Assembly: GCF_030518155.1 (NCBI RefSeq)
Contig: NZ_JAULRU010000172.1
Coordinates: 1-53,733, forward strand
DNA: 53,733 nucleotides
Reading direction: 5' to 3'
Source of the DNA: Gilvimarinus gilvus
GTDB lineage: Bacteria; Pseudomonadota; Gammaproteobacteria; Pseudomonadales; Cellvibrionaceae
Position 1 is the stretch's first letter, and every line of letters starts with the position of its first letter. Positions 148 through 47,973 of the stretch are shown piece after piece. The notes beneath the pieces are model-generated. The model was not told where the DNA came from. It made no database searches and saw only the letters and a list, made by a program, of their open reading frames with translations. Both the position numbers and the translations under genes were made by a program.

Positions 148-660
148 TTAACGATTCCAGAAGATATGCACCTCTTCAAAGCCGGTTTCTATGGTGAAGA
201 TGTCACCTCCGACTTCTAAATCGTAGGTCATACGGGCGTAGTCTATAAAGGGCGCCAGGCGCTCTGGGGTGTCACCACTTTCTTCGGTCAGCTCGGCGGC
301 AAAGTCGGCCACACTGGAGTAGCAGCCAGCATAATTCTCCTCAATTACCGTATGTGCCTCCTCAATATCCGTGTATATGTTCAGCACTTCCGCGACTACT
401 TCGCCATGCTCCCCAATAAAAACAGCAACTTCTTGCGCTTCTTTTAAGCCCGTGTACTGAGAAATCTGGTAACTGCGGTAGCCTTCATAGTCGTGAATGG
501 CATACTCCTCCGCATCAGCCACCGGACTGCAGGCAAGCAATTCGCTCACTTGGCTTTGAATATCATCCAGATCTTGTGTGGCATCAATCCAGGCGCCGTG
601 ATGAATGCCGCTGTTATATGCGGCCAGGTCGGATACGTAAATCTTGATATCTTCGCTCAT
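148..660 (-). CDS. ardA: ArdA-family antirestriction protein
   Basis: A 170-residue, strongly acidic protein opening MSEDIKIYVSDLAAYNSGI with the IHHGAWID motif, both typical of ArdA N-termini. Known ArdA proteins are B-DNA mimics that bind and inhibit type I restriction-modification enzymes and are usually carried on plasmids, ICEs and islands. Start: a longer frame goes up to 720, but AAGGGG lies seven bases before the ATG at 660 and family members start at this point. It is transcribed away from the reverse-transcriptase locus and lies next to an IS3 remnant, which suggests an accessory or mobile setting. A GNRA-loop hairpin (cctctg-gcga-cagagg, 724-739) lies in its presumed 5-prime leader. 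Confidence 0.85.
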   Translation of the reverse strand: MSEDIKIYVSDLAAYNSGIHHGAWIDATQDLDDIQSQVSELLACSPVADAEEYAIHDYEGYRSYQISQYTGLKEAQEVAVFIGEHGEVVAEVLNIYTDIEEAHTVIEENYAGCYSSVADFAAELTEESGDTPERLAPFIDYARMTYDLEVGGDIFTIETGFEEVHIFWNR

Positions 661-723
661 GGTCTTGCCCCTTAAAATTCGCTGTTGAGGTTTCTGAGAA
701 GCGCTTAGCGCGCCGCTCATGAA

Positions 724-867: not shown

Positions 868-896
868 TTGACAAGAAATCACAAACACTGTATAAA
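868..896 (+). promoter_or_regulatory. Near-consensus sigma70 promoter driving the repeated element
   Basis: TTGACA at 868-873 and TATAAA at 891-896 are separated by exactly 17 bases. Transcription should begin near 902-905, only a few bases before the first copy of the 127-bp structured element. No start codon with a Shine-Dalgarno sequence follows closely, so the likely first product is an untranslated RNA. It is the cleanest promoter I saw in the window. Confidence 0.75.
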
Positions 897-907
897 AAAA
901 CAAGGAT

Positions 908-1034
908 TCTTGCTTGCCAGCAGTGCGGGCCGATTTCTATCGGTGCTGTTACATCCTGTGCAAGCTACGAACATCACATCAGTGATTTCGGGTGGGTTAG
1001 GACTGACGATCGTCCTCCCAGAGAATGTCTAACC
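908..1034 (+). ncRNA. Structured RNA element, copy 1 (127 bp), upstream of the reverse transcriptase
   Basis: This 127-bp unit matches 1269-1395 at 126 of 127 positions. It folds into three stems. The first pairs gcttgc 912-917 with gcaagc 960-965, continues with cagca 918-922 against tgctg 944-948, and ends in ccgat-ttct-atcgg 930-943. The second is atcac-atca-gtgat 973-986. The third pairs ggttag 995-1000 with ctaacc 1029-1034 around the palindrome gacgatcgtc 1005-1014. The repeat boundaries coincide with the outer edges of these stems. A strong promoter ends just upstream. I infer a noncoding RNA attached to the reverse transcriptase, by analogy with ncRNAs found upstream of retron and some defence RTs. 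The alternative is a coding repeat, because both copies are open in the same frame. Confidence 0.55.
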
Positions 1035-1139
1035 GACTCAGTCGTCCTATACATAACCGGAACTAGGTCCGCAGGTGGCTCTTACCAGACGGTTGTAGGA
1101 TTATTTTTGTGCGTCGGGGTGGATGTGGTCGAGTTCCAG

Positions 1140-1167
1140 TTGCGCATTGCCGTAAAAACGTTATAAA
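1140..1167 (+). promoter_or_regulatory. Weak candidate promoter between the two repeat copies
   Basis: TTGCGC at 1140-1145 and TATAAA at 1162-1167, spacer 16. The -10 is good and the -35 poor. It would lie 26 bases before an 18-codon reading frame with its own GGAG. Confidence 0.3.
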
Positions 1168-1192
1168 TGCCAGAAATATGGAGAACAAGACC

Positions 1193-1249
1193 ATGAAAGC
1201 TAAATCATGCAAAAACATGCCAGGTTTCGGCCTGGGAGGTGCTTACTAG
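1193..1249 (+). CDS. Possible 18-residue peptide between the repeat copies
   Basis: ATG at 1193 is preceded by GGAG (1180-1183) at nine bases and followed by 18 codons ending in TAG: MKAKSCKNMPGFGLGGAY. The coding stretch also contains a hairpin (ccagg-tttcgg-cctgg), so it might be part of a structured RNA instead. I recognise no family. It lies between the two RNA-like repeats and upstream of the reverse transcriptase. Only the start signal and the position support it. Confidence 0.3.
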   Translation: MKAKSCKNMPGFGLGGAY

Positions 1250-1446
1250 CACTAGTGTTTTGCTGGGCTCTTGCTTGCCAGCTGTGCGGGCCGATTTCTA
1301 TCGGTGCTGTTACATCCTGTGCAAGCTACGAACATCACATCAGTGATTTCGGGTGGGTTAGGACTGACGATCGTCCTCCCAGAGAATGTCTAACCTCAGT
1401 GGCGATTGGGTCTAGTTTGCTGGTAGGGCCCCTACCAATTTTATGA
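1207..1446 (+). CDS. Possible 79-residue ORF through repeat copy 2, overlapping the RT start (ATGA)
   Basis: The frame starts at ATG 1207, reads through repeat copy 2 and ends in TGA at 1444-1446, so its stop overlaps the RT start codon as ATGA, the classic layout for translational coupling. The RT lacks a good Shine-Dalgarno of its own, which coupling would explain. Against it, the start at 1207 has no clear ribosome site and the repeated part folds as RNA. Copy 1 is open in the same frame (CGPISIGAVTSCASYEHH is shared), but no start codon follows its promoter. It may be only an accident of the repeat. Confidence 0.25.
   Translation: MQKHARFRPGRCLLALVFCWALACQLCGPISIGAVTSCASYEHHISDFGWVRTDDRPPRECLTSVAIGSSLLVGPLPIL
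1269..1395 (+). ncRNA. Structured RNA element, copy 2 (127 bp)
   Basis: Direct repeat of 908-1034 at an offset of 361 bases. The only difference is position 1283 (T) against 922 (A); this breaks one A-T pair in the first stem while the other stems stay intact. It ends 47 bases before the RT start and is followed by a tight inverted repeat (1421-1437). Whether it is a separate transcript, part of one long RNA with copy 1, or a decayed duplicate cannot be told from sequence alone. Confidence 0.5.
1421..1437 (+). promoter_or_regulatory. Perfect inverted repeat just before the RT start codon
   Basis: tggtaggg and ccctacca flank a single C, followed by aatttt and then the RT ATG at 1443. As RNA it would form a GC-rich stem that could end the upstream transcript or hide the RT start. 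A related sequence, ggcaggcccctac at 838-850, precedes the promoter, so the promoter-plus-repeats module is bracketed by similar short motifs. Confidence 0.45.
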
Positions 1447-2717
1447 GAAAATTAAATCTTTACAGCCAAGTAAGAGATATAAAAAATCTGCGCAAGGCCT
1501 GGGGTCGCGTTCGCCTCAATGCCACATCTTCACAATCAAATTCAATTAAGCAGCAAGCCCTCGAGTTTGACAAAGAAATAGACAAGCATCTATCTAGAAT
1601 ACAAACTCAACTTAGAACGAAAAAATACAAATTCAAACCAGCTATTGGCATTGCGAAAGAAGATAAGCCAGGAAAAAAAAGACCAATCGTTATTGCCTGC
1701 ATAGAAGACAGGATTGTACAACGAGCCATACTTCAAACCCTGCAAAACATTTCCTCTCTCAAATCGCTCATAGAAACCCCTACTAGTTGCGGCGGAATAC
1801 AAGAAAGAAGCGTTAGATATGCAGTAAATATGGCTCATGACAAAGTCCTTGAAGACGGCACGTATTTTATTCGCTCCGATATTCAAGGCTTTTTCACCAA
1901 GATCCCCAAAGATATCGTCTTAAGTGAAATAAAAAAACACTCGCCTGATGACGACTTTAACGAACTAGTCCGAAATTCGATAGAAGTAATACTTTCGAAT
2001 ACAAACGAGCTTGGCAGAGACTTAAAACTATTTCCAACTACGGATATCGGTGTTGCTCAGGGCTCTTGCTTATCACCGCTCCTTGGAAATATTCTATTGC
2101 ATGAGTTCGATAAAGTATTAAATTCAGAAGACGTCCTCTGCTTAAGGTATATAGACGACTTTTTACTGCTCGGACCATCCAGAAAAGCCGTTACAGCCAA
2201 ACTCAAAAAGGGGAACAGAATCCTTAAAGAGCTAGGACTTGAAGCGTATGATCCTCAGCACAATACGGATAAGGCAGCTCACGGGGAATCAAACAGGGGA
2301 ATAATCTTCCTAGGCTGTGACATTAGGCCAAATTCAATCACACCCATGAAGGCCTCACGAACAAGGCTTCTAGAAAAAGTGAAAAATCGCCTAAACCGAT
2401 CTAAAATTTCACTACGCGCAAGCCCAATAAAGGGCCCGCTCGGAGAGCAAAGCTTTGTAGAAAGCCTCGAAAACGTAAGTCATATTGTAAAAGCCTGGGG
2501 AAACCAATATCAATTTTGCAACAACGAACAAGTTATGGCACAACTGGATGAAAAGATAAGCCAAGAAATAAAAGAATACATTTCTTTTTATGCTGACCAA
2601 GCTAGAAAGCTCGAAAGTACCGATTCATTAGCTCGCCGCAGGCTACTAGGTGTTCATGCTCTAGTTGACAGCAAGAAGGACCCAATCGTACCTACAAAAA
2701 AACAATCCACATTTTAG
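1443..2717 (+). CDS. Group II-like reverse transcriptase with YIDD active site
   Basis: A 424-residue RNA-directed DNA polymerase. Palm motifs appear in order: KPGKKRPIVIACIEDR (about 75-90), IRSDIQGFF with catalytic Asp146, the QGSCLSPLLGNILLHEFD block (206-223), YIDD with Asp238 and Asp239, and FLGCDI (289-294). The QG..SPLL..NI..H.FD pattern is that of group II intron and group II-like RTs. There is no maturase or endonuclease extension, and the 52 bases after the stop hold no domain V, so this is not an intron ORF. Retron NAxxH and VTG motifs are absent. YIDD in place of the usual YADD is known from group II-like G2L4 enzymes. Two structured repeats and a strong promoter lie directly upstream. 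Base composition is richer in A+T than in mutS. It is probably a defence, repair or domesticated RT; the exact class is unknown. Confidence 0.85.
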   Translation: MRKLNLYSQVRDIKNLRKAWGRVRLNATSSQSNSIKQQALEFDKEIDKHLSRIQTQLRTKKYKFKPAIGIAKEDKPGKKRPIVIACIEDRIVQRAILQTLQNISSLKSLIETPTSCGGIQERSVRYAVNMAHDKVLEDGTYFIRSDIQGFFTKIPKDIVLSEIKKHSPDDDFNELVRNSIEVILSNTNELGRDLKLFPTTDIGVAQGSCLSPLLGNILLHEFDKVLNSEDVLCLRYIDDFLLLGPSRKAVTAKLKKGNRILKELGLEAYDPQHNTDKAAHGESNRGIIFLGCDIRPNSITPMKASRTRLLEKVKNRLNRSKISLRASPIKGPLGEQSFVESLENVSHIVKAWGNQYQFCNNEQVMAQLDEKISQEIKEYISFYADQARKLESTDSLARRRLLGVHALVDSKKDPIVPTKKQSTF

Positions 2718-2769: not shown

Positions 2770-3459
2770 CTAAAGATCGTTAGCTAACGGGTTGTTTACA
2801 AGGTAGTTGTGCCTACTGCTAATCCACTCTATGCAGCCTGGAGAATTAATAACGCCATGTAAAAAGACAGACTCCCAATTGTTCGCCGATCCATAGCGCC
2901 TACCAACCCTATCAAGCTGGTCAATAACAGCATCTCTCAATTCAGCTTCTGTAACAACATCACCCTTAGGCATAGTATTAATTACTGAAGAAGGACTATT
3001 CCATACTCTTGTCCAAAGAGTATCTAACCATTTAACAAGTCCAGATGGTTTAACAATATTTTCAACATGGAATTTAATGGATTCATCTATTGGCTGATCA
3101 GTTGGCAACGTCTGAATAGTAATACTTACAACTGGAAGAGCTGGAGCCTGCTCAATTAAACATGATAACAATCTATCATTTAAGCAGTCGTCATAATATG
3201 GATGGAGTATTCGCTCTAAGGCAACTATTGAGCCTGTAACTTTTTTACCTTTACTGGAATTACATTTACATGCCGGAACAAGATTCTTTGAGAATACAGT
3301 ATATTCTGGATAGTACTCCTTGGACAAGTAATGGTCCAAGCTTGATGTTCGTGGAGCTCCGCACATCGGACAGATATCAAGTGAGGAATCCCTTAGGTCA
3401 TTAATAAACTTAAGATCCTTAGGCGGAGCATCAAAATTCTTCTTCAACCCCTCGCTCAC
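2770..3459 (-). CDS. HNH endonuclease domain protein, convergent to the RT
   Basis: A 229-residue protein with a clear zinc-supported HNH core near the N-terminus: CPMC (30-33), the catalytic-type DHYLSK (Asp42, His43), KNLVPACKCN (58-67) and NSSKG. This is the LDHYLPK ... NLVPCC..CN pattern of McrA-like HNH nucleases. The remaining 150 residues match nothing I recognise. The only start in frame is GTG at 3457-3459, with a T-rich upstream stretch and no Shine-Dalgarno; an in-frame TAA lies 11 codons before it, so the N-terminus may have been cut. It is AT-rich like the RT and faces it tail to tail, which fits co-inheritance but not an operon. Confidence 0.7.
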   Translation of the reverse strand: MSEGLKKNFDAPPKDLKFINDLRDSSLDICPMCGAPRTSSLDHYLSKEYYPEYTVFSKNLVPACKCNSSKGKKVTGSIVALERILHPYYDDCLNDRLLSCLIEQAPALPVVSITIQTLPTDQPIDESIKFHVENIVKPSGLVKWLDTLWTRVWNSPSSVINTMPKGDVVTEAELRDAVIDQLDRVGRRYGSANNWESVFLHGVINSPGCIEWISSRHNYLVNNPLANDL

Positions 3460-34792: not shown

Positions 34793-35098
34793 TTCATCAG
34801 CCTCAAACATTATTATTTTTGAGTAAAACTACCCGAATCACACCTTCTGCCCGATCACGTTAGCGCTTTCACTGCGAAAAAACGTTCGCACTTCGGTTTT
34901 ATTCGCCAGAGCGGGTTCGAATAAACGCTTGGGGCGCGAACTTTATCGGTTTTTTGCAGGTTCGACCTTAAAAGTAACCTGCTCGTACGACACACAGACA
35001 AGGTGATTTTATAGTGGTGATTGGCCACCATTTTGTGGCCATTCACTCAGCGTAATGCTGCTCACGAATAACGAAGTGACCAAATAATGGAGTCACCT
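34793..35098. promoter_or_regulatory. Divergent promoter region between CRTAC1 and GH3 genes
   Basis: No gene is present. Two signals stand out. Bases 34913-34922 read gggttcgaat, identical to half of the perfect palindrome upstream of the AraC-type regulator (45862-45883). Bases 34956-34962 and 34976-34982 form the inverted repeat gcaggtt/aacctgc. A third motif, ttagcgcttt near 34860, has the AGCGCT core of some LacI-family operators but is not symmetrical beyond that. Confidence 0.4.
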
Positions 35099-37354
35099 AT
35101 GAAAAAGCTATTGACTTACTGCCTGCCAGTAATGTGCCTCGGCGCCCCACTCGCGAGTGCCGACGCAGTGGAAGAACGTATCGACACCCTGCTTGAGACT
35201 ATGACCATTGAGCAAAAAGTAGGACAACTCGCTCTGCGTGATTTTGGCACTTACAGTGCAGAACAAATACCGGCCCTTAAAGAACAGATTCGCCAGGGCG
35301 AGGTTGGCGGTTTTTTGAACGTTAATTTCTCCTCCGTTAACGACAACGCTTTTGCCGAGCTGCAAAAAATCGCCGTGGAAGAAAGCCCTCAGGGCATACC
35401 GCTGATTTTTGGCCAGGATGTCATTCACGGTTACGAAACCATTTTTCCCATACCGTTAGGCCAGGCGGCCAGCTGGAACCCAGCGCTGGTTAAAAAAGGC
35501 GCACGCATCGCCGCCGAAGAAGCAACAACTGATGGCATTCGCTGGACATTTGCCCCAATGATTGACATATCCCACGACCCGCGCTGGGGCCGAATTGCAG
35601 AAACTCTGGGAGAAGACCCTTTTTTGGCCTCCATATTGGGGGTCGCTATGACCGAAGGCTTTCAAACAGATGACCCTAGCCGCCCCGATGCCATGGCGGC
35701 CTCGGCAAAACACTTTATTGGTTATGGCGCAGCAGAAGCCGGGCGCGACTACAATGCCGCCTATATACCTGAAGCGAGATTGCGCGACACCTTCCTACCG
35801 CCATTCAAAGCAGCGGTAGACGCGGGGCTAATGACCATCATGAGCTCTTACAACACCCTGAACGACATTCCAGCTACCGCCAATCAGTACGCACTGAAAA
35901 CTATCTTGCGAGACGAATGGGGGTTTGACGGATTTGTGGTCAGCGACTGGAATGCGGTCATGGAAATGTTACCTCACGGCTTTGCCCGAGACGCCAAACA
36001 TGCCGCCGAGCTGAGTGCCAACGCGGGCATTGACTTTGAAATGTACACCGATACTTATCAGCAGCATCTGCCCCAGCTTATTAAAGAGGGAAAATTTACC
36101 GAGGCGAAGTTAGACCAGGCGGTCCGTCATATGCTTCGGGTCAAGATGCGCCTGGGCCTGTGGGAGAACCCTTACCCGAGGGGCAACCGCGAGGCGGTTA
36201 TCCTTAGCGATGACCATCGACAAGCTGCACGTGAAGCTGCGCGGGAAAGCTTTGTTTTATTGAAAAATGACAATTCGATATTGCCACTTGCCCCAAAAAC
36301 CAAGATTGCATTAATCGGCCCGTTGGCCAATGTACCCCATGAACAATTGGGCACATGGATTTACAATGGTAACAAGAAAGACTCAGTGCCCTTAGTACCG
36401 GCACTTGAACAACATCTTGGCGGAACCGATTCGTTTACCTTTGTTCAGGGACTGGAATACAGCCGCGACACATCGACAAAAGGGTTTGGTAAAGCCGTAG
36501 AGGCAGCACAACAAGCCGACGTTATCGTGTATGTGGGTGGTGAAGAATCTATTTTATCGGGTGAGGGGCACAGCCGCGGTGATATTGCATTGCCTGGGGC
36601 GCAACAAGAGCTGGTAAAAGCCTTAAGCGAAACGGGGAAACCTCTGGTGACCGTTATTATGGCAGGCCGTCCTATCGAGCTGGGCAAAGTACGCAGCCAA
36701 TCCGATGCCATCATGATGGCATGGCACCCTGGCACTATGGCAGGCCCCGCTTTAGTTGATGTACTTTACGGAGAGTATTCCCCTGTGGGCCGCTTACCCA
36801 TTACCTGGCCCAAGGGCGAAGGACAAATTCCCATTTATTACAATCGAATGGCAACTGGGCGCCCGGCCACTGATGACAATTACACTCTCATTGGTGAAAT
36901 TGAACTAGGCGTATTCCAACACGGTCCCGGTAACTCATCGAACCACCTAGACTATGGTCATGAGCCCGAGTTCCCCTTTGGTTTTGGCTTGACCTACAGT
37001 GAATTTGAGTATTCCAATCTCGCTATTGCTAAATCGCGCATCGCCTTGGGAGAGACGCTTAAAGCCAGTGCCACCATCAAAAATACTGGCAAAGTAAAAA
37101 CCACAGAGGTAGTTCAGCTGTATATTAGGGATTTGGTTGCATCACGTACTCGCCCCATTCGAGAGTTAAAAGGCTTTGAACGCGTAACACTTACACCGGG
37201 TGAATCTCGGGTCGTTGAATTTGAAATATCCACTGATGCACTCGCATTCCACAACCAAAAAATGGAAAAAGTCACTGAGGCTGGAGAGTTCGAATTGTGG
37301 ATTGCCAAGGATGCAACATCAGGCTTAAAAGGTCGCTTTATTGTTTACGAGTAA
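35099..37354 (+). CDS. GH3 family beta-glucosidase, periplasmic
   Basis: A 751-residue protein with a signal peptide (MKKLLTYCLPVMCLGAPLASADA), the GH3 N-terminal barrel with the GFDGFVVSDWNAV motif (nucleophile Asp), the C-terminal sandwich with GGEESILSGEGHSRGDIALPGAQ and a final fibronectin-like domain (TIKNTGKVKTTEVVQLYI, LTPGESRVVEFEI). It resembles BglX-type enzymes that release glucose from beta-gluco-oligosaccharides. The start at 35099 has GGAG six bases upstream. It lies next to two GH5 genes and is the probable last step of the beta-glucan route. Confidence 0.94.
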   Translation: MKKLLTYCLPVMCLGAPLASADAVEERIDTLLETMTIEQKVGQLALRDFGTYSAEQIPALKEQIRQGEVGGFLNVNFSSVNDNAFAELQKIAVEESPQGIPLIFGQDVIHGYETIFPIPLGQAASWNPALVKKGARIAAEEATTDGIRWTFAPMIDISHDPRWGRIAETLGEDPFLASILGVAMTEGFQTDDPSRPDAMAASAKHFIGYGAAEAGRDYNAAYIPEARLRDTFLPPFKAAVDAGLMTIMSSYNTLNDIPATANQYALKTILRDEWGFDGFVVSDWNAVMEMLPHGFARDAKHAAELSANAGIDFEMYTDTYQQHLPQLIKEGKFTEAKLDQAVRHMLRVKMRLGLWENPYPRGNREAVILSDDHRQAAREAARESFVLLKNDNSILPLAPKTKIALIGPLANVPHEQLGTWIYNGNKKDSVPLVPALEQHLGGTDSFTFVQGLEYSRDTSTKGFGKAVEAAQQADVIVYVGGEESILSGEGHSRGDIALPGAQQELVKALSETGKPLVTVIMAGRPIELGKVRSQSDAIMMAWHPGTMAGPALVDVLYGEYSPVGRLPITWPKGEGQIPIYYNRMATGRPATDDNYTLIGEIELGVFQHGPGNSSNHLDYGHEPEFPFGFGLTYSEFEYSNLAIAKSRIALGETLKASATIKNTGKVKTTEVVQLYIRDLVASRTRPIRELKGFERVTLTPGESRVVEFEISTDALAFHNQKMEKVTEAGEFELWIAKDATSGLKGRFIVYE

Positions 37355-37801
37355 ACTGACGACGCCACCAACCTAACTTTTTGTTTAACAAACCCCCGAC
37401 ACGCCGGTTCCACCCGCATGTCGGGGATACACTTATATCAAGTATGGTTGAGACCGGCTGTTATCCTCACCCCATACCACTGTGTCATTAAAGCTTATTC
37501 TCCCCTCTTCACCATGACTTCCGGCAGTCTTGGTTCACAACTCGCAATGAATGCGCAACGATCTACTATATTTATGGGCAGCCATTAAGCGCCAGATAAT
37601 ATTTTATAGGGTAGTAATAAAGGCCGCACCGACGGTGCGCTATCATGAGCGGAGGGAAAGGGTGGAGATCACTTAGAAGGATATTTAAGGTTCTTAACCG
37701 TCAAGAAAAAGGGGCTCGTTGCCCAGAAGACAAAAGCCCAATGCCTGACAATATAAAAAGATAGTAATTCGAAACACTACCCCAAACGGAGTTCTATCAG
37801 T
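37355..37801. other. 447-bp convergent spacer between GH3 and GH5 genes
   Basis: No gene is supported. The inverted repeat ccccgaca (37394-37401) / tgtcgggg (37419-37426) lies 40 bases after the GH3 stop and probably ends its transcript, although no T-run follows. A second small hairpin, gcacc-gac-ggtgc, lies near 37626. The remaining sequence has no signal I can name. Confidence 0.5.
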
Positions 37802-40351
37802 TTACTGCACAGAATCAAACCGCCATTTTTGATGAGATGACTGTGTGACGGTACCCGTGCGAATATTTGCGCCGTTGGCTGTACCGCCACCTGCTACTTC
37901 CAGAGCGTCGCCCAAAACCGAAGAAACTGTATAAAAACCATTCGGCTGACTTTCAATAAACCAGCGCTGATTACTGTTGCTCTGGCAGGACCATTGATGC
38001 ACATTATCGCTGCCAGCATCGGCATCGAGACAAGAGCCACTATTAAGGCTGACCAGTTCATAGCTGCCATCGCTTAAAGGTTCGACCAGCCACTGCTGAT
38101 TGAGACCGCCGGCATAATCCCACTGATGAACATTGGCACCATTTTGAGTAGATACCCCAGAGACATCCAGAACCTTGCCGCTGGCGTCGTTGGTAATAAC
38201 ATAGGTCCCAGCTTGTAAATCAGCGTTATCGGGTGTGCTTTGCGCGGTAAAGTCAACCCAATTGACATTAAAGCCGCCGCTCACAAAGTTAAAACGAACA
38301 CTGTGGTCGCCGGCACTCAAAGTTATTGGCACCGCTATTGATTGCCAGTTCTGCCAACCACCCGTGGCGGGAATGTCGATGCCACCGACATTGCTACCAT
38401 CAACTTCTATATTCATGCGACCACCACCATTTTGACTCGCCACCCGAGCGCTCACGGTAAAGTCGGTGTTCTCACTCACAGTCAGTTGATATTGCGTCCA
38501 GTCGCCGTTATCAATCCAGCCGATGTTGTCGCCTCCACCGCTGTCGGCTGTCGCCTCTGTCTGCACACCTTGCATAGCGCAATAGTTTTCTGCCTCTATT
38601 TTGGCAGGCAAGCTCAGAGTGGTACCAGCACACGGATCGACAGGATTCGGCTCGGATGCACCTGCTTCAAACGCTACCCAATTTAGATTGAAGCCACCGG
38701 TTAAGAAATCCAGGCGCAGGCGATGATCACCCGCGCTCAGCGTAACTTCCCGAGTCACTGTCTGATAGCTTTGCCAATCACCGGTTACCGGCGTGCTTAC
38801 ACTTGCGATTGAGGCACCGTCTACTTTGACATCTATTTGACCGGAGGTGGCTTGCCCTGCCGTGCGTAACTTTAGAGTATAAATACCGGTACTCGGTACA
38901 TTAATATTGTATTCGCCCCAATCACCGGGGCTAATAAAACCCACATTTTGTCCACCATCGACATCACCTGTAGTTTCAGTTTGCAGGCTTGAGCTTTGGC
39001 AAAATGATTCCGCCTCTACTCTTCCAGGCAACTCAGTTATCGGTGCTGCGCCGCAGTCCGGCTGGACCACTTGAGCAGAGGGTGCTACAGCATCGTAAAA
39101 GCTCTGATGCCAGGTATGACTGGAGTGACCATTGCGAATGTTGTTCTGAGCAAAGTCAATCATTTCATCGAACAGATGAGTCGGAGGTGTCCCACCATTA
39201 TTAATGAAAGCCTTAATGTCGTTATAAGCATTATTGGGCGGTATTGTCCACAGGGTTTTATCGTGTGACATTTTCTTAAAAGACCAGGGGAAATAACCCG
39301 ACAACTCTTGTTTGGCCCAATCGGTTATAGCGGCCAGATTGCCAGGGTCGGTTTCGCCATACTCGCCAATAATGAGGGGGATATTCAAATTATTGGTAAT
39401 ATCTTCACGGCCACGCGTTGTGGAAACCGGACCATAGTGATGAATTTGATAGACCAAATTATTATCCCACTGGGCACTAACGCCTGTCTCGGCCTGAACC
39501 TGCGGATCGCTCCAGTCGATTTTGGTCAAATCCGATCCCCACCACGAACCTTCAGCGACAATGACATGATTTGAGTCCACCTCGCGAATCGCATCGCGCA
39601 TTGCGATTAGTGAACCCAACAGTTCAAATTCACGGCCGGGCTGGGGAACAGGTTCATTTATTAAGTCGTAACCCCAAATTACCGATTCATTTTTATAGCG
39701 ATCGGCAATATGTCGCCAAACCGAGCTGGCAATATTCACATTATTACCATCCCAGAACGTTACAGTATCGCGGGGCTGGCTGGCGTTAGAGTTAATGTTA
39801 TCGGCGTGATCTCCCGGATTCTGGTATCCCGGCGCGGCATGCATATCCAACAGAACGTAAATTCCCTGATCACGACAAGCTTCAATTATTTGGTCAAAAT
39901 ATTGAAACCCTTTATTACTTAAGCTGCCGTTTTCCCAAAACATATTGTAGTGAAAAGGCACCCGAACCGAATTAAAACCCAGCGCTTTGAGATCGGCTAT
40001 AGCCTTATTATCCACATAATTTAATCGCCATTGATGCTCAAACTCTTCAGCTTTAGAGGTACTGCCGAACGCTTGAGAAAGGGAATCAAAAAATTGCGAG
40101 TGGGTTCGATAGTTAAAATCCCCCATCATCAAGTAGCCTTCCCACAACAGCCAGTTACCAAGATTGATACCGCTTAAGAAAAGCTCGTCACCATTTTCAT
40201 CGACAATCTTGGTGCCTTGTGTCGATACATATTGGGCCTGGCTAACCGTACTGAACATAACTCCACTTAGAAGTAGGGCCCAAAAGGCCCATTTTTTCGC
40301 ACTTATATATAGATTGAATAAGCATTTTCGATTATTCGCTTTATGCTTCAT
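37802..40351 (-). CDS. Modular GH5 glycoside hydrolase with two CBM6-like and one ricin-type domain
   Basis: An 849-residue secreted enzyme. After a signal peptide (ending near STVSQAQ), a GH5 domain (about 45-430) opens LFLSGINLGNWLLWEGYLMM and has the acid/base Glu233 in DLINEP and the nucleophile Glu330 in IIGEYGE. GINLGNW-type openings recall exo-beta-1,3-glucanases, so laminarin-like beta-1,3 or -1,6 glucan is a plausible substrate, by inference only. Two CBM6-like domains follow (about 440-560 and 580-695), then a ricin-type QxW trefoil (about 705-849) with HQWDYAGGLNQQW and VHQWSCQSNSNQRW. The start at 40351 has GAGG at six bases. Confidence 0.9.
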   Translation of the reverse strand: MKHKANNRKCLFNLYISAKKWAFWALLLSGVMFSTVSQAQYVSTQGTKIVDENGDELFLSGINLGNWLLWEGYLMMGDFNYRTHSQFFDSLSQAFGSTSKAEEFEHQWRLNYVDNKAIADLKALGFNSVRVPFHYNMFWENGSLSNKGFQYFDQIIEACRDQGIYVLLDMHAAPGYQNPGDHADNINSNASQPRDTVTFWDGNNVNIASSVWRHIADRYKNESVIWGYDLINEPVPQPGREFELLGSLIAMRDAIREVDSNHVIVAEGSWWGSDLTKIDWSDPQVQAETGVSAQWDNNLVYQIHHYGPVSTTRGREDITNNLNIPLIIGEYGETDPGNLAAITDWAKQELSGYFPWSFKKMSHDKTLWTIPPNNAYNDIKAFINNGGTPPTHLFDEMIDFAQNNIRNGHSSHTWHQSFYDAVAPSAQVVQPDCGAAPITELPGRVEAESFCQSSSLQTETTGDVDGGQNVGFISPGDWGEYNINVPSTGIYTLKLRTAGQATSGQIDVKVDGASIASVSTPVTGDWQSYQTVTREVTLSAGDHRLRLDFLTGGFNLNWVAFEAGASEPNPVDPCAGTTLSLPAKIEAENYCAMQGVQTEATADSGGGDNIGWIDNGDWTQYQLTVSENTDFTVSARVASQNGGGRMNIEVDGSNVGGIDIPATGGWQNWQSIAVPITLSAGDHSVRFNFVSGGFNVNWVDFTAQSTPDNADLQAGTYVITNDASGKVLDVSGVSTQNGANVHQWDYAGGLNQQWLVEPLSDGSYELVSLNSGSCLDADAGSDNVHQWSCQSNSNQRWFIESQPNGFYTVSSVLGDALEVAGGGTANGANIRTGTVTQSSHQKWRFDSVQ

Positions 40352-40502
40352 CTCTAGCCTCATTTTATTCATTATGTGTTTGGCGAAGCGTCATAAGTCA
40401 CTGATACTACGAAACAGATAAAGGTCGATCATGCAGCTTAATGAGCCTGAGCAAACCTAGCCTGCTTCAGCCACAAACTCAAAACCCGTCGCACAAAGAG
40501 TG

Positions 40503-40531
40503 CACGCCGTCCCTTGGATCGGGGCGGCGTG
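40503..40531 (-). terminator. Strong 11-bp hairpin after the second GH5 gene
   Basis: cacgccgtccc (40503-40513) pairs with ggggcggcgtg (40521-40531), with one G-T and a 7-base loop, 11 bases after the stop of the upstream GH5 gene on the minus strand. It lacks a T-run, so it may protect the 3-prime end or act as a rho-assisted terminator. Confidence 0.55.
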
Positions 40532-40541
40532 ACATTCTGGG

Positions 40542-43109
40542 TTAAGGGTTTTTGATCTCAAACCAGTTTAAGTTCCACTGGTTATCGACCGAGCGTAAAC
40601 GCAGCGTTGATCGCCCTTCAGGAAGCTCCACATCGAAGCTAAGAGTCTGATAAGACTGCCAACCACCGGTATTTGGTACCGTAACAGTGGTTAATACTTG
40701 ATCGGCGACAATTACTTCAAACTGTACGCTACCCACCTGACTGGCCAGACGAAAATCCATTACGTAAGAGCCAGCGGAAGGTACATTAATGTCATAATCG
40801 ACCCAGTAGCCGCTCTCAAAGCTTCCGATATTAAAGCCGCCGCCTTCATCACCAGCGGATTCAGTTTGCACACCAGGATGTGCCGCGGAGTAACTCTCGG
40901 CTTCAATTTTTGTCGGCACTGTATAGAAGGTTTCACCACTTGCCATGATTTCACTGGCGTAGCCTTCATCGGTGTCATTAAAGGCTGCGACATAATAGTA
41001 ATAAGTGGTATCGGCGCTCACGGTATCGTCGTTGTAACGGTTGGCCTCGACGGTTGCGATCTCCTCAAAACCGGAGCGAGGCGCCAACGAACGGTATACT
41101 TTGTAGCCTACCACTTCGCCTTCGGCACTATCCCAACTTAGCGCTACATTGGAATCACTGACATCGAGCACCAAGTTGCTGGCTTTACCCGGAATATTGG
41201 TAAATATTGTTGCAGGCTCTTCCGACGTCAGCGACTTTTTAACCCAGTGGTTAACGACATAGTCCATTTCATCTATGGCAAAGAAGCTGAAGTACTCTTC
41301 AATTTCTTCAATAGAAGATGAATTAACGTTGACACTGGGAATGGCTCGACCGGTGACATCGACCCACTCTTGTGGCATATCAGGCACCAAATAGATTTCG
41401 GCCCAAGTATCACTACTGCCTAAATCCGTAAATTTTCCCGACAAGGTGTAAGACTCGCCACCTTCCACTTCAACCGCTTGATAAATCAGCGCATGGCTGC
41501 CTGCCGGTGATGTAACACGCAGGGCTTCACCGCTATCACTGCCAGCAAATTCACCCGCTGAATAGCCGAACTCATAATTTCGGGGATCGCCCCACAGTGA
41601 TACCTCGGTCCAGCTGGACTCGGCCCCAGAGCCAAACTCACCATTTACGATAATGTTGGTTCCATCTGAGTCTTTATTGAGTTGGATACTGTCGTAAACG
41701 ACATCGACACCATTAAAACCACCGGTTTTAATGACTAGGTACATGGTTTTTGTACCTTCCCCCTCGTAAGGCGTTGTGCTACTGGCCGGCACATCACAAG
41801 CATTGGCAAAGGTAGACTCCCAGCCTGCACAGCCCCAGGTTTGGGCCTTGGTAATAAGTTGATCGCCATTGTTCGTAACATAGCCCCAGGTACCATTGCC
41901 CAAGCCACCAGACGCGGTTGCGACTTTATACGACCAAGCGGTGCCCGCCCAGTTGAGGTCATTGTAAGTATCGAAGGTGGCGCGGGTGATTTCACCACCC
42001 ATTTCACCTAACCCATTCCAGGGCTGCATTTCTCCAACGAGCATAGGCGTATAGACTTTGCGAGCTCTGTTGGCCCAATCGCACACGCCTGAGTCACCGT
42101 TTTCACCGCAGGTCAGCCAATCGCGGTGTACGTTGTAACCAATTTCACCCCAGCCAAATAAGCCCGGATAAAAGTGCGGTTCAAAAGCAACGTTTTCCAT
42201 GCCGTAATCCATAGGATCACCATAAGCGGATATACCGTCGGCGTTGTGCCCCGCAAGTATGACGACATGCTCTTCATCATGAGCTCGTATTGCATCGTAT
42301 AGCTCAACTGAGAAATCTCGTAAAGTTGCCGAATCTGTTCCCCAGGGCTCGTTTAGCAACCCATAACCAGCTACGGTAGCTTCACCTTGATAATGCTTAG
42401 CAATCTCACCCCAAAGCCATTTGGTTCGCTCTTGATACGAGTCATTGCTCCACAGTTCGTTTTGCCCTTCACAACCGGTATGTTGCTCGACGCCTTGGCC
42501 TCCGACAGCACCGTGCAAGTCCAGCACTACATAGATTTCGCGCTTTTTAGCTTCGGCCACGGCCCAATCTAAATACTCCCAGGCATCGTCTTTCAACGTC
42601 ATGGGCGCATCATCATTCTCGATCAGACTGTAGGGAAAAGGAACGCGCACCACGTTAAACCCAGCTTCGGCAATCACATCCCAATCGGCTTCGGTGAACC
42701 AGCTGTCGCGGTGTAGTTTTATTAATCGATCTTTTTCAGCCTCGCCAAAACGCTCTGTCAAGGTCTCTTCCAACGAGCACTGGTCGGGGATGTTCTCACC
42801 CAAGGGGTTATCCCCATTGTCAAACATCCACAGCTCCATGCTCAGCCAGTTACCGATATTAATACCGCGCAGGGATACTTTTTGTTCATTCTGATTCACC
42901 CACATGGTGCCATCGGCTTTGAGAGCGGTATAACTTTCCGTACCAGCGACGGGAGACTCTACCGCGGGCGGAACAGGGGTCACAGTTTCAGGGCCGCTTC
43001 CGCCACAGGCACTCAACCCAAGTACGGCACTAAGCACTAGCGTGCTAACTGCCATGTGACTGGAGTTGAATTGTCTTTTTGTACGAGCGCCAAACATTGA
43101 AGTTTTCAT
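40542..43109 (-). CDS. Modular GH5 lipoprotein with fibronectin III and CBM6 domains
   Basis: An 855-residue lipoprotein (GLSACGGS, Cys35) held at the outer membrane. The GH5 domain (about 65-440) opens KVSLRGINIGNWLSMELW and has the acid/base Glu254 in LLNEP and the nucleophile Glu360 in LVGEMQPW. A linker region with a CBM-like fold (about 450-580) follows, then a fibronectin III domain (about 660-745, VALSWDSAEGEVVGYKVYRS) and a C-terminal CBM6 (about 750-855, IEAESYSAAHPGVQTE). Surface anchoring suggests it cuts polymer at the cell for the neighbouring TonB receptor. It is clearly a relative of the next GH5 gene. Confidence 0.9.
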   Translation of the reverse strand: MKTSMFGARTKRQFNSSHMAVSTLVLSAVLGLSACGGSGPETVTPVPPAVESPVAGTESYTALKADGTMWVNQNEQKVSLRGINIGNWLSMELWMFDNGDNPLGENIPDQCSLEETLTERFGEAEKDRLIKLHRDSWFTEADWDVIAEAGFNVVRVPFPYSLIENDDAPMTLKDDAWEYLDWAVAEAKKREIYVVLDLHGAVGGQGVEQHTGCEGQNELWSNDSYQERTKWLWGEIAKHYQGEATVAGYGLLNEPWGTDSATLRDFSVELYDAIRAHDEEHVVILAGHNADGISAYGDPMDYGMENVAFEPHFYPGLFGWGEIGYNVHRDWLTCGENGDSGVCDWANRARKVYTPMLVGEMQPWNGLGEMGGEITRATFDTYNDLNWAGTAWSYKVATASGGLGNGTWGYVTNNGDQLITKAQTWGCAGWESTFANACDVPASSTTPYEGEGTKTMYLVIKTGGFNGVDVVYDSIQLNKDSDGTNIIVNGEFGSGAESSWTEVSLWGDPRNYEFGYSAGEFAGSDSGEALRVTSPAGSHALIYQAVEVEGGESYTLSGKFTDLGSSDTWAEIYLVPDMPQEWVDVTGRAIPSVNVNSSSIEEIEEYFSFFAIDEMDYVVNHWVKKSLTSEEPATIFTNIPGKASNLVLDVSDSNVALSWDSAEGEVVGYKVYRSLAPRSGFEEIATVEANRYNDDTVSADTTYYYYVAAFNDTDEGYASEIMASGETFYTVPTKIEAESYSAAHPGVQTESAGDEGGGFNIGSFESGYWVDYDINVPSAGSYVMDFRLASQVGSVQFEVIVADQVLTTVTVPNTGGWQSYQTLSFDVELPEGRSTLRLRSVDNQWNLNWFEIKNP

Positions 43110-43194
43110 TATCTGTTACCTTTTATAATTCACATCTTTGTCGATTAGTCTGGTGCCAAGTCGAGAGGCTTAGCACCAGTGGCGATTTCATTTA

Positions 43195-45600
43195 CTAGAA
43201 GCTTGCGTTGACTCTTACACCGTAGGTGCGCGGCGGCGCATAGCGCCCGGGAAAACCGGCAGCGGTGTTGTTATCGACAGAGGCGCTGGATTTGGTCATC
43301 TCATCAGTGGCGTTATTGACAAACACATCCACCGACCAGCTATCGCCCGGATCAAGCGTAAGGCCAAGATTCACTTTGGTATAAGCATCTTGTCCAGCGG
43401 GGTTGCCCCAGTAAAAGCCGGTTTGCTCTTCATCATTAATAATATTATTGATAGGAGCGCCATTTTCATTTTGATCGCGGAAGAACGTCTCATCCACATA
43501 GCGCACATTGACGCGAGGTGTAATTAGGCCAATAGCTGTTTCAAAGTCCCAACGCAAAGTCGTATTGAGGTTAAATTCAGGGGACTGGGGTAACTTATTC
43601 CCTGCCAGATCGTAGAAGCCTGTAGGTTCACCATCAGGACCAATAATGGGTGTTAAATTGGTGCCGTAGCCAGCACCATCGACGACATAATCGGTGTACT
43701 CGGCATTCAGGTAACCACCACTGATATCCAGCTGACCACCGCTGCCAATCATCCAGGTAAGCTCGGCCTCAACCCCGGAAATTTCAGCACCCGCCACGTT
43801 CGAGTTCACGATCTGGTTTAGATCTTCGTCGAAGCCCGAACGAATTAGATCGTCATACTCCATAAAGAAAGCCGCGGTATTCAACCGGAAAGAACCCGTT
43901 TGATACTTGTAACCGACCTCGTAACTGGTGCTGCTTTCAGGGTTAGTCGCCTGTCCGCCGTCCTGAATCACACCCGCGCGATAGCCGGTGCTAACGCTAG
44001 CGTAAACCATAGAATCGTCCCAATCGTAACTAGCCCGAGCCAGATACGTCAGTTGATCATCCTCACTTTCCACGTCGTTGCGTAGAGTAGCCGCACACTG
44101 GCCTCGAGTGCGCTCGCGACCGGTGTAATCGTCTAAACCGTCTGCGCCCTCTCCTCCTGTGGTGTTATTAAGGAAGTCTTCGAATACGGATAGATTCTCT
44201 CCTCCCAGAGTTGGGCGAATAAATTCGTTCTCACAATCTTGAATGTTTCGGCCACCGCGATCGTACTTAAGGTCGTCGGTATAGCGAACGCCCCCGGTAA
44301 TTGAAAACTGATCCGTCAGATGCCAGGTTGCCTGCGCATAAGCGGCTCCCGACTCGGTGCCACGTGCGGGCTGAATAAACGTGTTGCCCCCCTGCAACCA
44401 GCTGCCTTGACCATCAAAGTCAAACCGAATCGAGGTTTCCTCTTCAAAGTAATAGGCACCTATTACCCAATCAATGACCTCGCCTTCAATATTCTGCAAT
44501 TTGATTTCGTGGCTTTCGGCGGTGGAGTCTTGGTATTCCGTACGGCCCTCTTGAAAACGAGAGGTAATACCACCATCCTGATCCACCACCTGCTCGCGGT
44601 GTAAATCACTAATACCTGCAATATATTGAAGGTTGAGATTGTCGCTGATATCAAAGTTCACCGTAGAGCGCCAAACGTCGCTCTGTAGCTCTAGCGAAAC
44701 GGGAGAATCGATAAACGAATCAAAATTGTCTTGTTCTACCAATACTGGGTTAAGCAATATGCCATTGTTGCCATTATCGGTGAAAGTCTCGTAAGACACA
44801 GTCCAGGACAGACTATCGGTGGCATCCCATAAACCGGTAATACGCGCTGAGCGCACATCCGTATTATTCAGTTTTAAACCCACATTGGCGGTACGGCCCG
44901 TGGAAAGACCCGAGAAGTTATGCTCGCTGCCGCGGGGGTCTTCGCTAATCGCATTGACCCAACCATCGTCTTGGTCTGAGTAACCGGCTACCCGGAATGA
45001 TAAGTTGTCCAATACCGGTAAAGTGACAGCGCCTGAAACTTGCTGGCGATTATAGCTGCCGTAGGTAGTCTGGAAGTTACCTTCAAACTCGTGGCCTGGC
45101 TTAACGGTTTGCAGCAACAAGGCGCCACCGGTGTTGTTGCGGCCGAACAAAGTGCCTTGGGGACCACGCAACACCTGTACATTTTCCAGATCGTACATCA
45201 ACGCCAGGGCGCCCTGAGCACGTGCGGCATATACGCCATCAACGTACACGCCAACGCCCTGATCACCGGTTTCAGTGGGGTTATTGGTACCAACACCGCG
45301 AATGTAAATCTTGATGTCCGATTGCTCTTCCTGCCCGGTAACCATCAGGTTAGGGACGAAGCCGCTCATATCCGTTACATCTAAAATGTCATTTTCGGTC
45401 AAAGCAGCTTGGGATAATGCAGTAACCGCTATGGGCGTAGATTGTAGATCGGCAGGACGGCGCTCTGCCGTTACCAATACCTCTTCTAACATACCCACTT
45501 GGGTAGATTGCCCGGGGTTATCTTGAGCATGAACTTGCGTTATGTGACCCGCCGCGGCAATAATGCCCACAGCCATCGCCAAAGGATTTTTAAGGTGCAT
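43195..45600 (-). CDS. TonB-dependent outer-membrane receptor
   Basis: An 801-residue receptor with a signal peptide (ending THVHAQ-like at about 26), a TonB box (MLEEVLVTAER), a plug domain with VQVLRGPQGTLFGRNNTGGAL and a barrel ending in an aromatic residue (RVNASF). It is 85 bases downstream of the GH5 lipoprotein gene boundary and divergent from the AraC-type regulator, so it likely imports the GH5 products. The ribosome site AGAGGA precedes the start. Confidence 0.92.
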   Translation of the reverse strand: MHLKNPLAMAVGIIAAAGHITQVHAQDNPGQSTQVGMLEEVLVTAERRPADLQSTPIAVTALSQAALTENDILDVTDMSGFVPNLMVTGQEEQSDIKIYIRGVGTNNPTETGDQGVGVYVDGVYAARAQGALALMYDLENVQVLRGPQGTLFGRNNTGGALLLQTVKPGHEFEGNFQTTYGSYNRQQVSGAVTLPVLDNLSFRVAGYSDQDDGWVNAISEDPRGSEHNFSGLSTGRTANVGLKLNNTDVRSARITGLWDATDSLSWTVSYETFTDNGNNGILLNPVLVEQDNFDSFIDSPVSLELQSDVWRSTVNFDISDNLNLQYIAGISDLHREQVVDQDGGITSRFQEGRTEYQDSTAESHEIKLQNIEGEVIDWVIGAYYFEEETSIRFDFDGQGSWLQGGNTFIQPARGTESGAAYAQATWHLTDQFSITGGVRYTDDLKYDRGGRNIQDCENEFIRPTLGGENLSVFEDFLNNTTGGEGADGLDDYTGRERTRGQCAATLRNDVESEDDQLTYLARASYDWDDSMVYASVSTGYRAGVIQDGGQATNPESSTSYEVGYKYQTGSFRLNTAAFFMEYDDLIRSGFDEDLNQIVNSNVAGAEISGVEAELTWMIGSGGQLDISGGYLNAEYTDYVVDGAGYGTNLTPIIGPDGEPTGFYDLAGNKLPQSPEFNLNTTLRWDFETAIGLITPRVNVRYVDETFFRDQNENGAPINNIINDEEQTGFYWGNPAGQDAYTKVNLGLTLDPGDSWSVDVFVNNATDEMTKSSASVDNNTAAGFPGRYAPPRTYGVRVNASF

Positions 45601-46051
45601 AGCTTTTATTCCTCTCGATTATAGTCGTTATTCTTGTTTGCCGTTCCTTCCGACAGGTTGGTGTAAGGACTTAATACCTACCGGAGAAGGGGCTGCTTCT
45701 GTTTCGATCAGCCACCCGCTATTATGTTTGAGCAATTTGCATCAAATGGCTGATTGGTACTAGGTTATGTTCAGCTGGGCAAGACGTCGTTCGGGTAGGA
45801 TCAGCAATAAGTTCGAATAAATAATTGGGCGCAATGCTAGGTATTAATATCGGCTCATACAGGGTTCGAATTAATTCGAACCCCTTGCCACCACTGCTTT
45901 TGGTGAGTTAAAGTTGGGCTCTCAATAACTCAAAAAATCAGCGTATCCTGACATAAATTCAGTAATTTAAACGTGTAATTCAGCCCCGATCCGGCACCAA
46001 CCCCATAGAAATTGGCGCTTGGTGGGCATAATAATCAGAAACCAATACCCC
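45601..46051. promoter_or_regulatory. Divergent regulatory region between TonB receptor and AraC-type regulator
   Basis: Three elements stand out: the inverted repeat atcagcca (45707-45714) / tggctgat (45747-45754), a ttcgaat box at 45812-45818, and the perfect 22-bp palindrome gggttcgaatt-aattcgaaccc at 45862-45883. The 11-mer gttcgaataaa occurs both at 45811 and at 34915 near the GH3 promoter. This suggests a shared operator for a carbohydrate regulator. Confidence 0.55.
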
Positions 46052-47257
46052 ATGGATACAGTGCTTTTTAATTTCCACGACCTGGTGTTAATCCTAACGG
46101 CATTCGAATGCTTGTTATTTGCTCTTCTGCTGAGTGCCACCAACCAAAAGAGGGTTCTGAGCACCGCTTTTTTTGTCGGTTTTTTAATCTGTCACATTTT
46201 TATTCCGCTGCACGAGCTCACCTTTTGGGGCAAGCAGTTTAGAATATGGCTGCTGGATATATCACCCAATCTGTTCTTTTTGGGCAGCTACGCCTATTTT
46301 GTAGACGGGCCATTACTGTACCTTTTTGTTAGATCACTACTGTACAAAGACTTTAAGCTGCGTCGTATCCATCTACTTCACGCCCTACCGGTGGCCCTGT
46401 ATTTTTTTCATATGTTGGTATCGTTTTACCTGCAAAGTTACGAGCGCCGCGAAATGCTGGTCGAAACTCAACATATTGCCTATTCCGCGCCTTATCTATA
46501 CTTTGATGCCGCTGGACGCTTTATACGTGTTATTTACGCCATACTATGCCTTAAGCTGGCCTTCACTTACGGCGAGCAACTTAAAAACGTGTTTGCCAAC
46601 CTGAATAAGCGTGATCTTGCATGGCTAAAAGTCATGTTAGTAAGCTTTTTAGGACTCTTTGCCTGGGAGGCAGTCTTACTCACCCTCAAGCTGTACGGGA
46701 ACGCTACGGATAACTTCAACTTAGACTTACTCAATGTTATTGGCCTATCCGGCTACTATTTAACTTTTTTTATGCTCAATCTCCTGATTGGACTAAAGTT
46801 CACATTATTTACTTCAGTAGCGGCCATCAACGAGTCGTCCCCCTCACCGGCAGCGCATGAAAATTTGCCAACAGAAGACAAAACGCACGTAGAATCCATT
46901 AAACAAACCATGCTGCAGACTAAAATTTATACTGAACCGGATATTACGATTGATCAGCTGGCGGCAACGTTAAAACTTCCCACGAAACGTCTATCTCAGA
47001 TCCTAAAACAAGATTTTCATGCTAACTTTTACGAATTTATTAACAGTTATCGTGTAGAAGATGCCAAACAACAGTTAAGGGATCCTGCCGGCGCAAGCAA
47101 AACAATCACTGAAATATATTACGAGGTGGGATTTAATAGTAAATCTGTATTTAACACCTTTTTTAAACGGAAAGAAGGTTGTACACCGAGCCAGTATCGC
47201 AATAAGAATACTGTTCCGGTTTCGGCTCAAGAAGATAACAACAACTTCATACCTTAA
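46052..47257 (+). CDS. Membrane-anchored AraC-family transcriptional regulator
   Basis: A 401-residue protein. The N-terminal half has about seven hydrophobic spans (from LVLILTAFECLLFALLL to YYLTFFMLNLLIGLKF); the C-terminal 100 residues are an AraC/XylS HTH pair with DITIDQLAATLKLPTKRLSQILK and EIYYEVGFNSKSVFNTFFKRKEGCTPSQYR. Membrane-embedded sensors with AraC output are known near polysaccharide loci. It lies divergent to the TonB receptor, so it is the probable regulator of the glucan genes. The start at 46052 is an ATG; the longer frame opens on TTG. Confidence 0.88.
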   Translation: MDTVLFNFHDLVLILTAFECLLFALLLSATNQKRVLSTAFFVGFLICHIFIPLHELTFWGKQFRIWLLDISPNLFFLGSYAYFVDGPLLYLFVRSLLYKDFKLRRIHLLHALPVALYFFHMLVSFYLQSYERREMLVETQHIAYSAPYLYFDAAGRFIRVIYAILCLKLAFTYGEQLKNVFANLNKRDLAWLKVMLVSFLGLFAWEAVLLTLKLYGNATDNFNLDLLNVIGLSGYYLTFFMLNLLIGLKFTLFTSVAAINESSPSPAAHENLPTEDKTHVESIKQTMLQTKIYTEPDITIDQLAATLKLPTKRLSQILKQDFHANFYEFINSYRVEDAKQQLRDPAGASKTITEIYYEVGFNSKSVFNTFFKRKEGCTPSQYRNKNTVPVSAQEDNNNFIP

Positions 47258-47888
47258 ACCATCAACCCTTGCCTCTCATTTTGCAACAATCATTACAATT
47301 CACAGTTATAAAGTGGCTTGCCCTCACCTAGCGAGCCTGTGGTAATACTCAAGGGGCGGCACAAAACATGCACTCTTGTTTTTTAAATAGTTAATGACTT
47401 TATCAAATTTAGTAAAGCTGTCCTCGCTCCACCTATCTAGATGCCCTTGACCACTACAATGCAACAGCAGATACAAAAATTTACAACTACGATAAGCCGC
47501 GAAAAACTACTGAACGAGACCGTACTTATCGAGTTATCCAAATGATTATTTGGCCCCCTTTCTAGGCATACCCCAGAGAAGCGAGCGTCTTGACAGTAGA
47601 GCCATACCTATACCGAAGGGTTTTGCTCCAGCACGTCGAAAATGATGTCATCGGACTGACTGTAGGGATTTCCAATAGCAGTGAGCGCTATACCAACTAC
47701 CATCTTATCCGCAAACAAAGGGCACTCGGTCCATTTTCATCAAACATCACCGCTGGTTGACGGCGTTGAAACAAACATCTGCTTCGAGCTGCCACATCTT
47801 AATACTTCCACACCGAAATTTAGCCTGCTCATATAACTAAAACATCAAGATATATCCAACTATAGCGCCCCACAAAAAGTTTACCAAA

Positions 47889-47898: not shown

Positions 47899-47973
47899 AT
47901 TGGACTTCTTGTGTTGTAGAATCCGACTTGAACACTGGTAATTACCTATTTTTAATAACAGCCCCTGCCCCCA

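Follow-up and report, generated by a model that had tools for sequence, protein, structure and literature searches.

The 53,733-nucleotide (nt) stretch of Gilvimarinus gilvus DNA analyzed here, referred to below as the window (contig NZ_JAULRU010000172.1, positions 1 to 53,733), contains a reverse transcriptase (RT) gene preceded by two copies of a 127-nt RNA-like unit, the direct repeats (DRs) DR1 and DR2 (Table 1). The start-to-start distance of the two copies is 361 nt, and they differ by a single mismatch (922 A/1283 T). The candidate promoter P1 is the top-scoring promoter candidate within 70 nt upstream of DR1; 11 nt separate the end of its −10 element from DR1, and transcription is predicted to begin at ~903, by the repeat's left edge. 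The segment between the repeats contains a second promoter-like sequence, P2, a short hairpin, and the start of a small open reading frame (ORF) that traverses DR2. Each repeat is followed by one of two short complementary segments, x and x′. An earlier note on this DNA had described P1, the two repeats and the RT that follows them, and all of these are found in the sequence as described. In its own genome, the region is present at one place only. Rfam gave zero matches in the window at the gathering threshold, and just two chance-level snoRNA matches (E 0.99) when E-values up to 5 were admitted.

Table 1. Coordinates of features in the window
Feature	Position	Strand	Basis or remark
Promoter P1, TTGACA-17-TATAAA	868..896	+	−35 at 868-873, spacer 17, −10 at 891-896
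DR1, first copy of the structured RNA-like unit, three stem-loops	908..1034	+	127 nt; repeat comparison and fold
x, pairs with x′	1035..1046	+	12 bp, −21.0 kcal/mol, shuffle p=0.0055
Motif CCAGACGGTTG, middle segment	1085..1095	+	near-identical motif in 10/13 two-copy loci
Promoter-like P2, TTGCGC-16-TATAAA	1140..1167	+	equivalent position in 9/10 loci listed, without shuffle control
Hairpin motif CATG-CAAAAA-CATG	1206..1219	+	its ATG is the start of the small ORF
Small ORF, 79 amino acids, hydrophobic start, traverses DR2	1207..1446	+	
DR2, second copy of the RNA-like unit	1269..1395	+	127 nt
x′, partner of x, between DR2 and RT start	1401..1412	+	
Local hairpin TGGTAGGGCCCCTACCA upstream of RT start	1421..1437	+	sequence
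G2L4-class RT, 424 amino acids, YIDD active site	1443..2717	+	
ArdA antirestriction protein	148-720	-	Pfam 9e-37; just upstream of RT module
PDC-M01B relative (PADLOC candidate)	2770-3459	-	2e-28; no Pfam match; converges on RT
36-amino-acid ORF end at contig start	2-109	+	no Pfam match

Class of the reverse transcriptase

What kind of RT is encoded at this locus? Judged by its sequence, the window RT belongs to the G2L4 class. It matches the G2L4 RT structures in the PDB (9d5x, 9d4s) over their full length (window residues 5-410, 9.7e-77), and a profile of eight loci matches 9d5x at 3.1e-126. Identity to 9d5x is 39% for the window RT and 86-89% for the RTs of loci L043 and L044. In an RT tree, 9d5x joins L043, L044, and L045 (82-89% identical to it; support 89/96), within the family that bears the repeats; L037 sits on a long branch and its placement is unsure. 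The earlier note had allowed for an RT of a class that works without RNA, with the repeat absent from relatives; instead, the repeat is present in members of the class, among them loci with RTs 86-89% identical to the crystallized enzyme. YIDD instead of YADD in domain 5 is described as distinctive for G2L4 in the available excerpt of PMC4244168. YIDD is found in 14 of the 15 G2L4 loci counted here, window included, with YVDD in L037. The G2L4 RT of Pseudomonas aeruginosa is a published DNA end-joining repair enzyme with an RT3a insertion that carries paired arginines, according to the excerpted text of PMC12337344. The window RT shares its class and the YIDD motif; at the RT3a position it has GRD, with gaps, aligned where 9d5x has RRK, and there is no RR pair. 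The same excerpt mentions neither an upstream repeat nor a partner noncoding RNA (ncRNA). Thus, of the undescribed RT-RNA system that the earlier note envisaged, the structured unit and the conserved arrangement stand, while the RT falls in a class that is already known.

Membership of other classes was considered and rejected on the basis of scores or anatomy. General libraries returned distant RT matches only (NCBIfam). The best of these, to the group II intron model TIGR04416, reached 162 bits, under the 300-bit cut-off, and Rfam found no intron RNA in the window or in the 10 loci searched. St85, the sole NCBIfam retron model matched, scored 52.7 bits (cut-off 235), and no retron RNA was found by Rfam in the same set, in keeping with the earlier note's remark that retron motifs and an intron are lacking. 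Scores were also below the cut-offs for Drt3a (53.6 bits; cut-off 200) and Drt2 (40 bits; cut-off 390). The closest numbered RT class in PADLOC is UG17, at 122 bits. An RT adjoining two near-identical repeats of ~130 nt resembles a diversity-generating retroelement (DGR), in which the repeats typically measure about 130 nt and template and variable repeats differ at adenines. The copies here are too alike for an adenine pattern, with one difference in the window (A/T), two in L046 (A/T and G/T), an indel in L005, and none in ten loci; no target gene with a repeat copy at its end was seen in the window. Retrons offer another likeness, in that complementary segments lie around a candidate template beside the RT gene. 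In retrons, the inverted repeats a1 and a2 enclose msr-msd. Here, x and x′ enclose the middle segment and DR2, DR1 falls outside, and there are two template copies. DRT2 (neo; PMC12039810, in the excerpt available) likewise combines an RT with an upstream ncRNA, and the two may share a readout through a joined frame with a hydrophobic bias; it differs in that the unit here spans 321-485 nt with long direct repeats.

Conservation and structure of the upstream region

Two direct repeats lie upstream of the RT in 13 of the 15 loci, with a repeat unit of 121-142 nt and a spacing of 321-485. L049 has an NN assembly gap inside its DR and is counted neither way, so a long upstream direct repeat is present in 13 of 14 resolved homologous loci, which is more than chance. 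The middle segment of L046-L048 seems, on our reading of the sequence, to hold a tandem duplication of the stretch from P2 to the hairpin, and this second copy accounts for the larger spacing (485). L001, L002, L034, L035, L042, L050, and L051 are repeats of loci already counted and were omitted, and all Fisher tests use one locus per lineage.

Relatives are rare. A single-protein query (E 1e-30) found them in 1 of 390 genomes of the order, namely the window's own genome. They occur in 2/369 genomes of the class and 7/398 of the phylum, three of the latter being YADD RTs. One family gave 3/368 genomes and one of its genera 5/189, one of them previously found; a further genome set gave 2/181, both previously found. 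There were none in 46 genomes around G043, and 1/2 around G410, which was G410 itself in two scans. Other loci come from Parahaliea (L003), a P. aeruginosa plasmid (L004), and one IMG/VR contig (L006). In viral contigs, the motif ATGCAAAAACRTGCCA occurs in 28 stretches, with an RT and long repeat in L034 only, on the same contig as L006; this contig was also the only hit of a DR pattern search, and no viral contig matched in protein scans that used the window, L004, and PDB sequences as queries. There was no match to the L044 locus in E. coli genomes, nor, by DNA, to the window locus in plasmids. Among the papers retrieved by literature searches, no title or abstract opening describes a repeat or partner ncRNA for G2L4, although a 2022 Cell paper on G2L4 repair may mention one. 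The excerpt of PMC4244168 contains no such description, and a term search of PMC13015716 likewise had no hit.

The earlier note had proposed that the unit folds into three stems. In the window, the predicted fold has three stem-loops at −44.4 kcal/mol, and compensatory changes support it: among the DRs of ten loci, 15 of 24 consensus pairs are changed on both sides in at least one sequence, with several pairs broken in up to four, and between the window and Parahaliea one pair is altered on both sides. In an alignment of seven loci, 92.7% of cells are paired and none of 500 shuffles reaches the covariation score; both DR1 and DR2 are included, so the DR evidence enters this score twice. A covariance model of ten DRs recovers the two copies at every two-copy locus from which it was built, partly by construction, and also those in L006; it finds nothing in 11 control loci.

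The two copies at a locus evolve in concert, being near-identical within a locus and changing together between loci. Comparing the window with L003, 28 changed sites are common to both copies, versus 2 where the copies differ. The corresponding numbers are 26 and 0 for L048/L044 and 41 and 2 for L044/L004, and closer pairs have 0 or 1 shared changes. The DR is 99.3% identical in the three Pseudomonas pairs L004/L006, L043/L044, and L047/L048 at synonymous divergences (pS) of 0.66, 0.51, and 0.54 in the RT gene; it is 98.5% identical in L046/L048 (pS 0.25) and 77% in window/L003 (pS 0.85). In the Pseudomonas pairs, such identity points to constraint on the DR nucleotides themselves.

A long-range helix is newly described here. 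The segment x immediately follows DR1 and x′ immediately follows DR2; the two are complementary and can form a contiguous helix of 9-15 bp in 10 of 10 loci tested. Shuffle p-values per locus are 0.0005-0.026 (Fisher 2.3e-9 over 6 lineages) and are generous because the pairing was spotted by eye before testing. The segments are lineage-specific in sequence, as illustrated by GACTCAGTCGTC/GGCGATTGGGTC in the window, TCGCCCGACTGCTGC/GTAGCAGTTGGGTGA in L044, and TCCCATCCG/TGGATGGGG in L037, and it is this difference between lineages that supports the helix. In each locus its own helix exceeds the mean cross-pairing; one partner from a related locus outpairs its own in L003, L004, L006, L043, L036, and L038, and in the other four loci its own is best. 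L046-L048 have a 14-bp x/x′ at the equivalent place, found by string match and not by blind search. The distance from the 3′ edge of DR1 to x is −1 to 9 nt. In the minimum-energy fold of the window, 12 of 12 x/x′ pairs form, with a mean probability of 0.95.

The remaining upstream features are also shared between loci. The −10 element of the best P1 candidate ends 5-11 nt before the DR in 9 of 14 loci (binomial 1e-4, for an interval set after looking). Across 10 loci compared without a shuffle control, P2 reads TTGAC-15/16-TA in seven, TTGCGC-16-TATAAA in the window, and TTGCAA-16-TATATA in L003, and is missing from L037. The hairpin motif (ATGCAAAAACRTGCCA) lies downstream of P2 in 11 of 13 two-copy loci, and 100% of its cells are paired in the seven-locus alignment. 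Its DNA (CATG-CAAAAA-CRTG) is conserved more strictly than would be required for the peptide that begins there. The ORF that follows has a mostly hydrophobic start and passes through DR2; in a joined repeat unit, its frame would extend through DR1 into the middle segment, giving 106 amino acids. Structure prediction for the 79-residue product was uninformative (mean predicted local distance difference test score, 51). The ORF and helix tests exclude L045 and L049, and the ORF start of L038 was set differently between analyses. The small ORF may genuinely encode a short membrane peptide. Its joined, permuted form is no more than a possibility, because protein-level selection is not seen on the DR or the C part. 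The x/x′ helix, P2, and concerted evolution all go beyond the earlier note.

Possible functions of the repeats

What could be the function of this arrangement? In the reading that we favor, and to which we would give an even chance, the G2L4 RT works together with its own leader RNA as an RT-ncRNA module of two parts, and the repeat is the template from which the enzyme makes DNA. Transcription from P1 would begin at the left edge of DR1, and the RNA would bear two structured domains (DR1 and DR2), each followed by one strand of the long-range helix. The helix would set the RT beside a DR end, from which that DR would be copied into complementary DNA (cDNA). Two modes of priming can be envisaged. 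In one, x′ would fold back on x as the primer, with DR1 as template and run-off at the RNA 5′ end. Since x follows DR1, this repeat extends from the predicted transcript start to the possible fold-back helix, so this mode would predict both edges of the repeat. In the other, which is retron-like, DR2 would be the template, with x and x′ acting as a1 and a2. Snap-back synthesis and strand annealing are within the chemistry of a G2L4 RT, as described in the excerpt of PMC12337344. The cDNA would be antisense to both copies, and hence could pair with the other RNA copy, repair the chromosomal copies and so homogenize them, and act on the RT message. We infer that this RNA is transcribed, bound, and used as a template; physiologically, the module would likely serve as a switch against phage or in stress, with the small hydrophobic ORF and the RT message as its points of action.

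Several observations weigh against this reading. The transcript and the cDNA are both predictions. The excerpted PMC12337344 reports that a G2L4 RT disfavors annealed primers of at least 10 nt, which speaks against simple extension of a 9-15-bp clamp, and that the enzyme acts in repair when moved to E. coli. The fold of the whole RNA contains x/x′ in 4 of 13 loci (window, L003, L005, and L037), and forcing the helix in the other nine costs 0.6-7.4 kcal/mol. A gapped-duplex test of x/x′, run first, was negative in 10 of 10 loci (p 0.13-0.86), and the contiguous-helix test was picked after that failure. The seven-locus alignment contains zero x/x′ pairs changed on both sides, and the number of further pair types across this alignment does not rise above that of shuffled ones (345 of 500). 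The covariance model finds no DR in L036, L037, or L038, whose repeats may be too diverged or may belong to another RNA family; one RNA family across all loci is therefore not established. Counted once per lineage, P1 is in position in 4 of 8 (P=0.033). Among individual loci, L005 has 59 identical nt and then a 13-nt indel between copies, and L045 has an intact RT with a single DR and no x. Finally, no repeat was found in the outgroup of YADD RTs (L039-L041), but this control is weak because the RT start is preceded by only ~510 nt in L039 and ~420 nt in L040, too little to accommodate the repeats; more sequence is available in L041.

The region could instead serve protein-RNA feedback, with the DR as a binding site for the RT. 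The copy in the P1 RNA would serve the working particle and the leader copy would repress RT translation, with x/x′, located before the RT start, as a switch in this regulation, and the enzyme's real work would be DNA end joining without RNA copying. We consider this explanation somewhat unlikely. A parallel is found in group II introns, whose RTs bind their own leaders. All 13 two-copy loci have DR2 and x′ immediately ahead of the RT start, which in the window is also preceded by a local hairpin; in addition, the RT has been reported to be active in repair in E. coli (excerpt of PMC12337344). Feedback alone nevertheless leaves unexplained why the copies are near-identical over 120-140 nt, loops included, and why the left edge of the repeat tends to fall at the predicted transcript start. 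A neutral tandem duplication whose copies are held similar through ordinary gene conversion is a far weaker candidate that we regard as very improbable. Recombination can homogenize short tandem repeats, and L045 resembles a collapse: the left flank of its DR is that of DR1 (7 nt) and the right flank that of DR2, as expected from a deletion between repeats. However, 13 of 14 resolved loci have kept the repeats although their RTs diverge deeply, and anatomy and helix correspond between them.

A third alternative is a hidden gene read by template jumping, as in DRT2. A cDNA would run to the RNA 5′ end within DR1, and its end would pair with DR2 and be extended further. The resulting DNA would carry the hydrophobic ORF as a frame that crosses the DR and goes on into the middle segment. 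An early idea held that the region chiefly holds a split gene; it was weakened by the substitution patterns, is kept solely as a rival, and now seems doubtful. The frame is stop-free in the DR and for 37-97 codons beyond DR1 in 13/13 two-copy loci, and ends sooner after DR2 in 13/13, but this openness arises partly by construction because the frame was chosen as the longest. Only the comparison of the longest circular ORF with shuffles allows for that choice (Fisher 4e-5 over 6 loci; single p 0.007-0.18). Over 7 lineages, the N part is hydrophobic (Fisher 3.8e-7) and the C part open (Fisher 0.004), and P2 lies upstream of the ORF. Hydrophobicity is not significant in L005, and L038, scored on a 26-nt piece, showed nothing. 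Ratios of nonsynonymous to synonymous differences (pN/pS) were pooled over five pairs, two of which share L048, and taken separately for L036/L038. The pooled ratio of the N part, 0.64, is the lowest among the three frames, whereas the DR has 0.88 and the C part 0.97, with another C-part frame lower at 0.53. For L036/L038 the ratio is 0.67 versus 0.83 and 0.75, and amino-acid identity is no higher than in another frame. There is a precedent for such a pattern in DRT2, where conservation is likewise at the nucleotide level: the excerpt of PMC12039810 ascribes most of the conserved neo residues to nucleotide conservation, with a hydrophobic bias. A bolder version, which we think improbable, would make G2L4 RTs gene-assembling or cDNA-switch immune systems, in which the RT jumps between two identical RNA repeats to build non-genomic DNA and in this way expresses a membrane-targeted protein with its two halves stored in the wrong order.

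What would follow if the G2L4 RT does work with a conserved partner RNA? Crystal structures, imaging, and the repair model for this class have so far been built on protein and DNA, and the native substrate would have been missed. The snap-back and strand-annealing chemistry may then be an in vitro echo of fold-back copying of RNA. The module would also represent a new RT-ncRNA class, with two identical template copies, a lineage-specific clamp helix, and testable predictions for the cDNA ends.

Genomic surroundings

The window RT sits between ArdA and the PDC-M01B relative, which by its cysteine/histidine pattern reads like an HNH-type nuclease. A PADLOC scan of neighbors covered eight proteins from four loci. 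Relatives of ShosA (2e-86) and RmrA (8.6e-151) lie within 5 kb of the RT in L006, and a relative of RmrT (8.4e-43) adjoins the RT in L036; neither of the two L004 proteins had a match, and the L005 protein had a weak match only. L004 also has a nearby gene annotated as a TIR protein, for which Pfam TIR_2 scores below its cut-off. This linkage to defense is suggestive only, as the scan covered neighbors at four loci. The ORF end at the contig start resembles a transposase C-terminus. Elsewhere in the window, positions 35087-53076 hold a polysaccharide-use cluster with GH3, two GH5 with CBM6, an AraC regulator, and alginate lyase, and further ORFs there read like TonB receptors.

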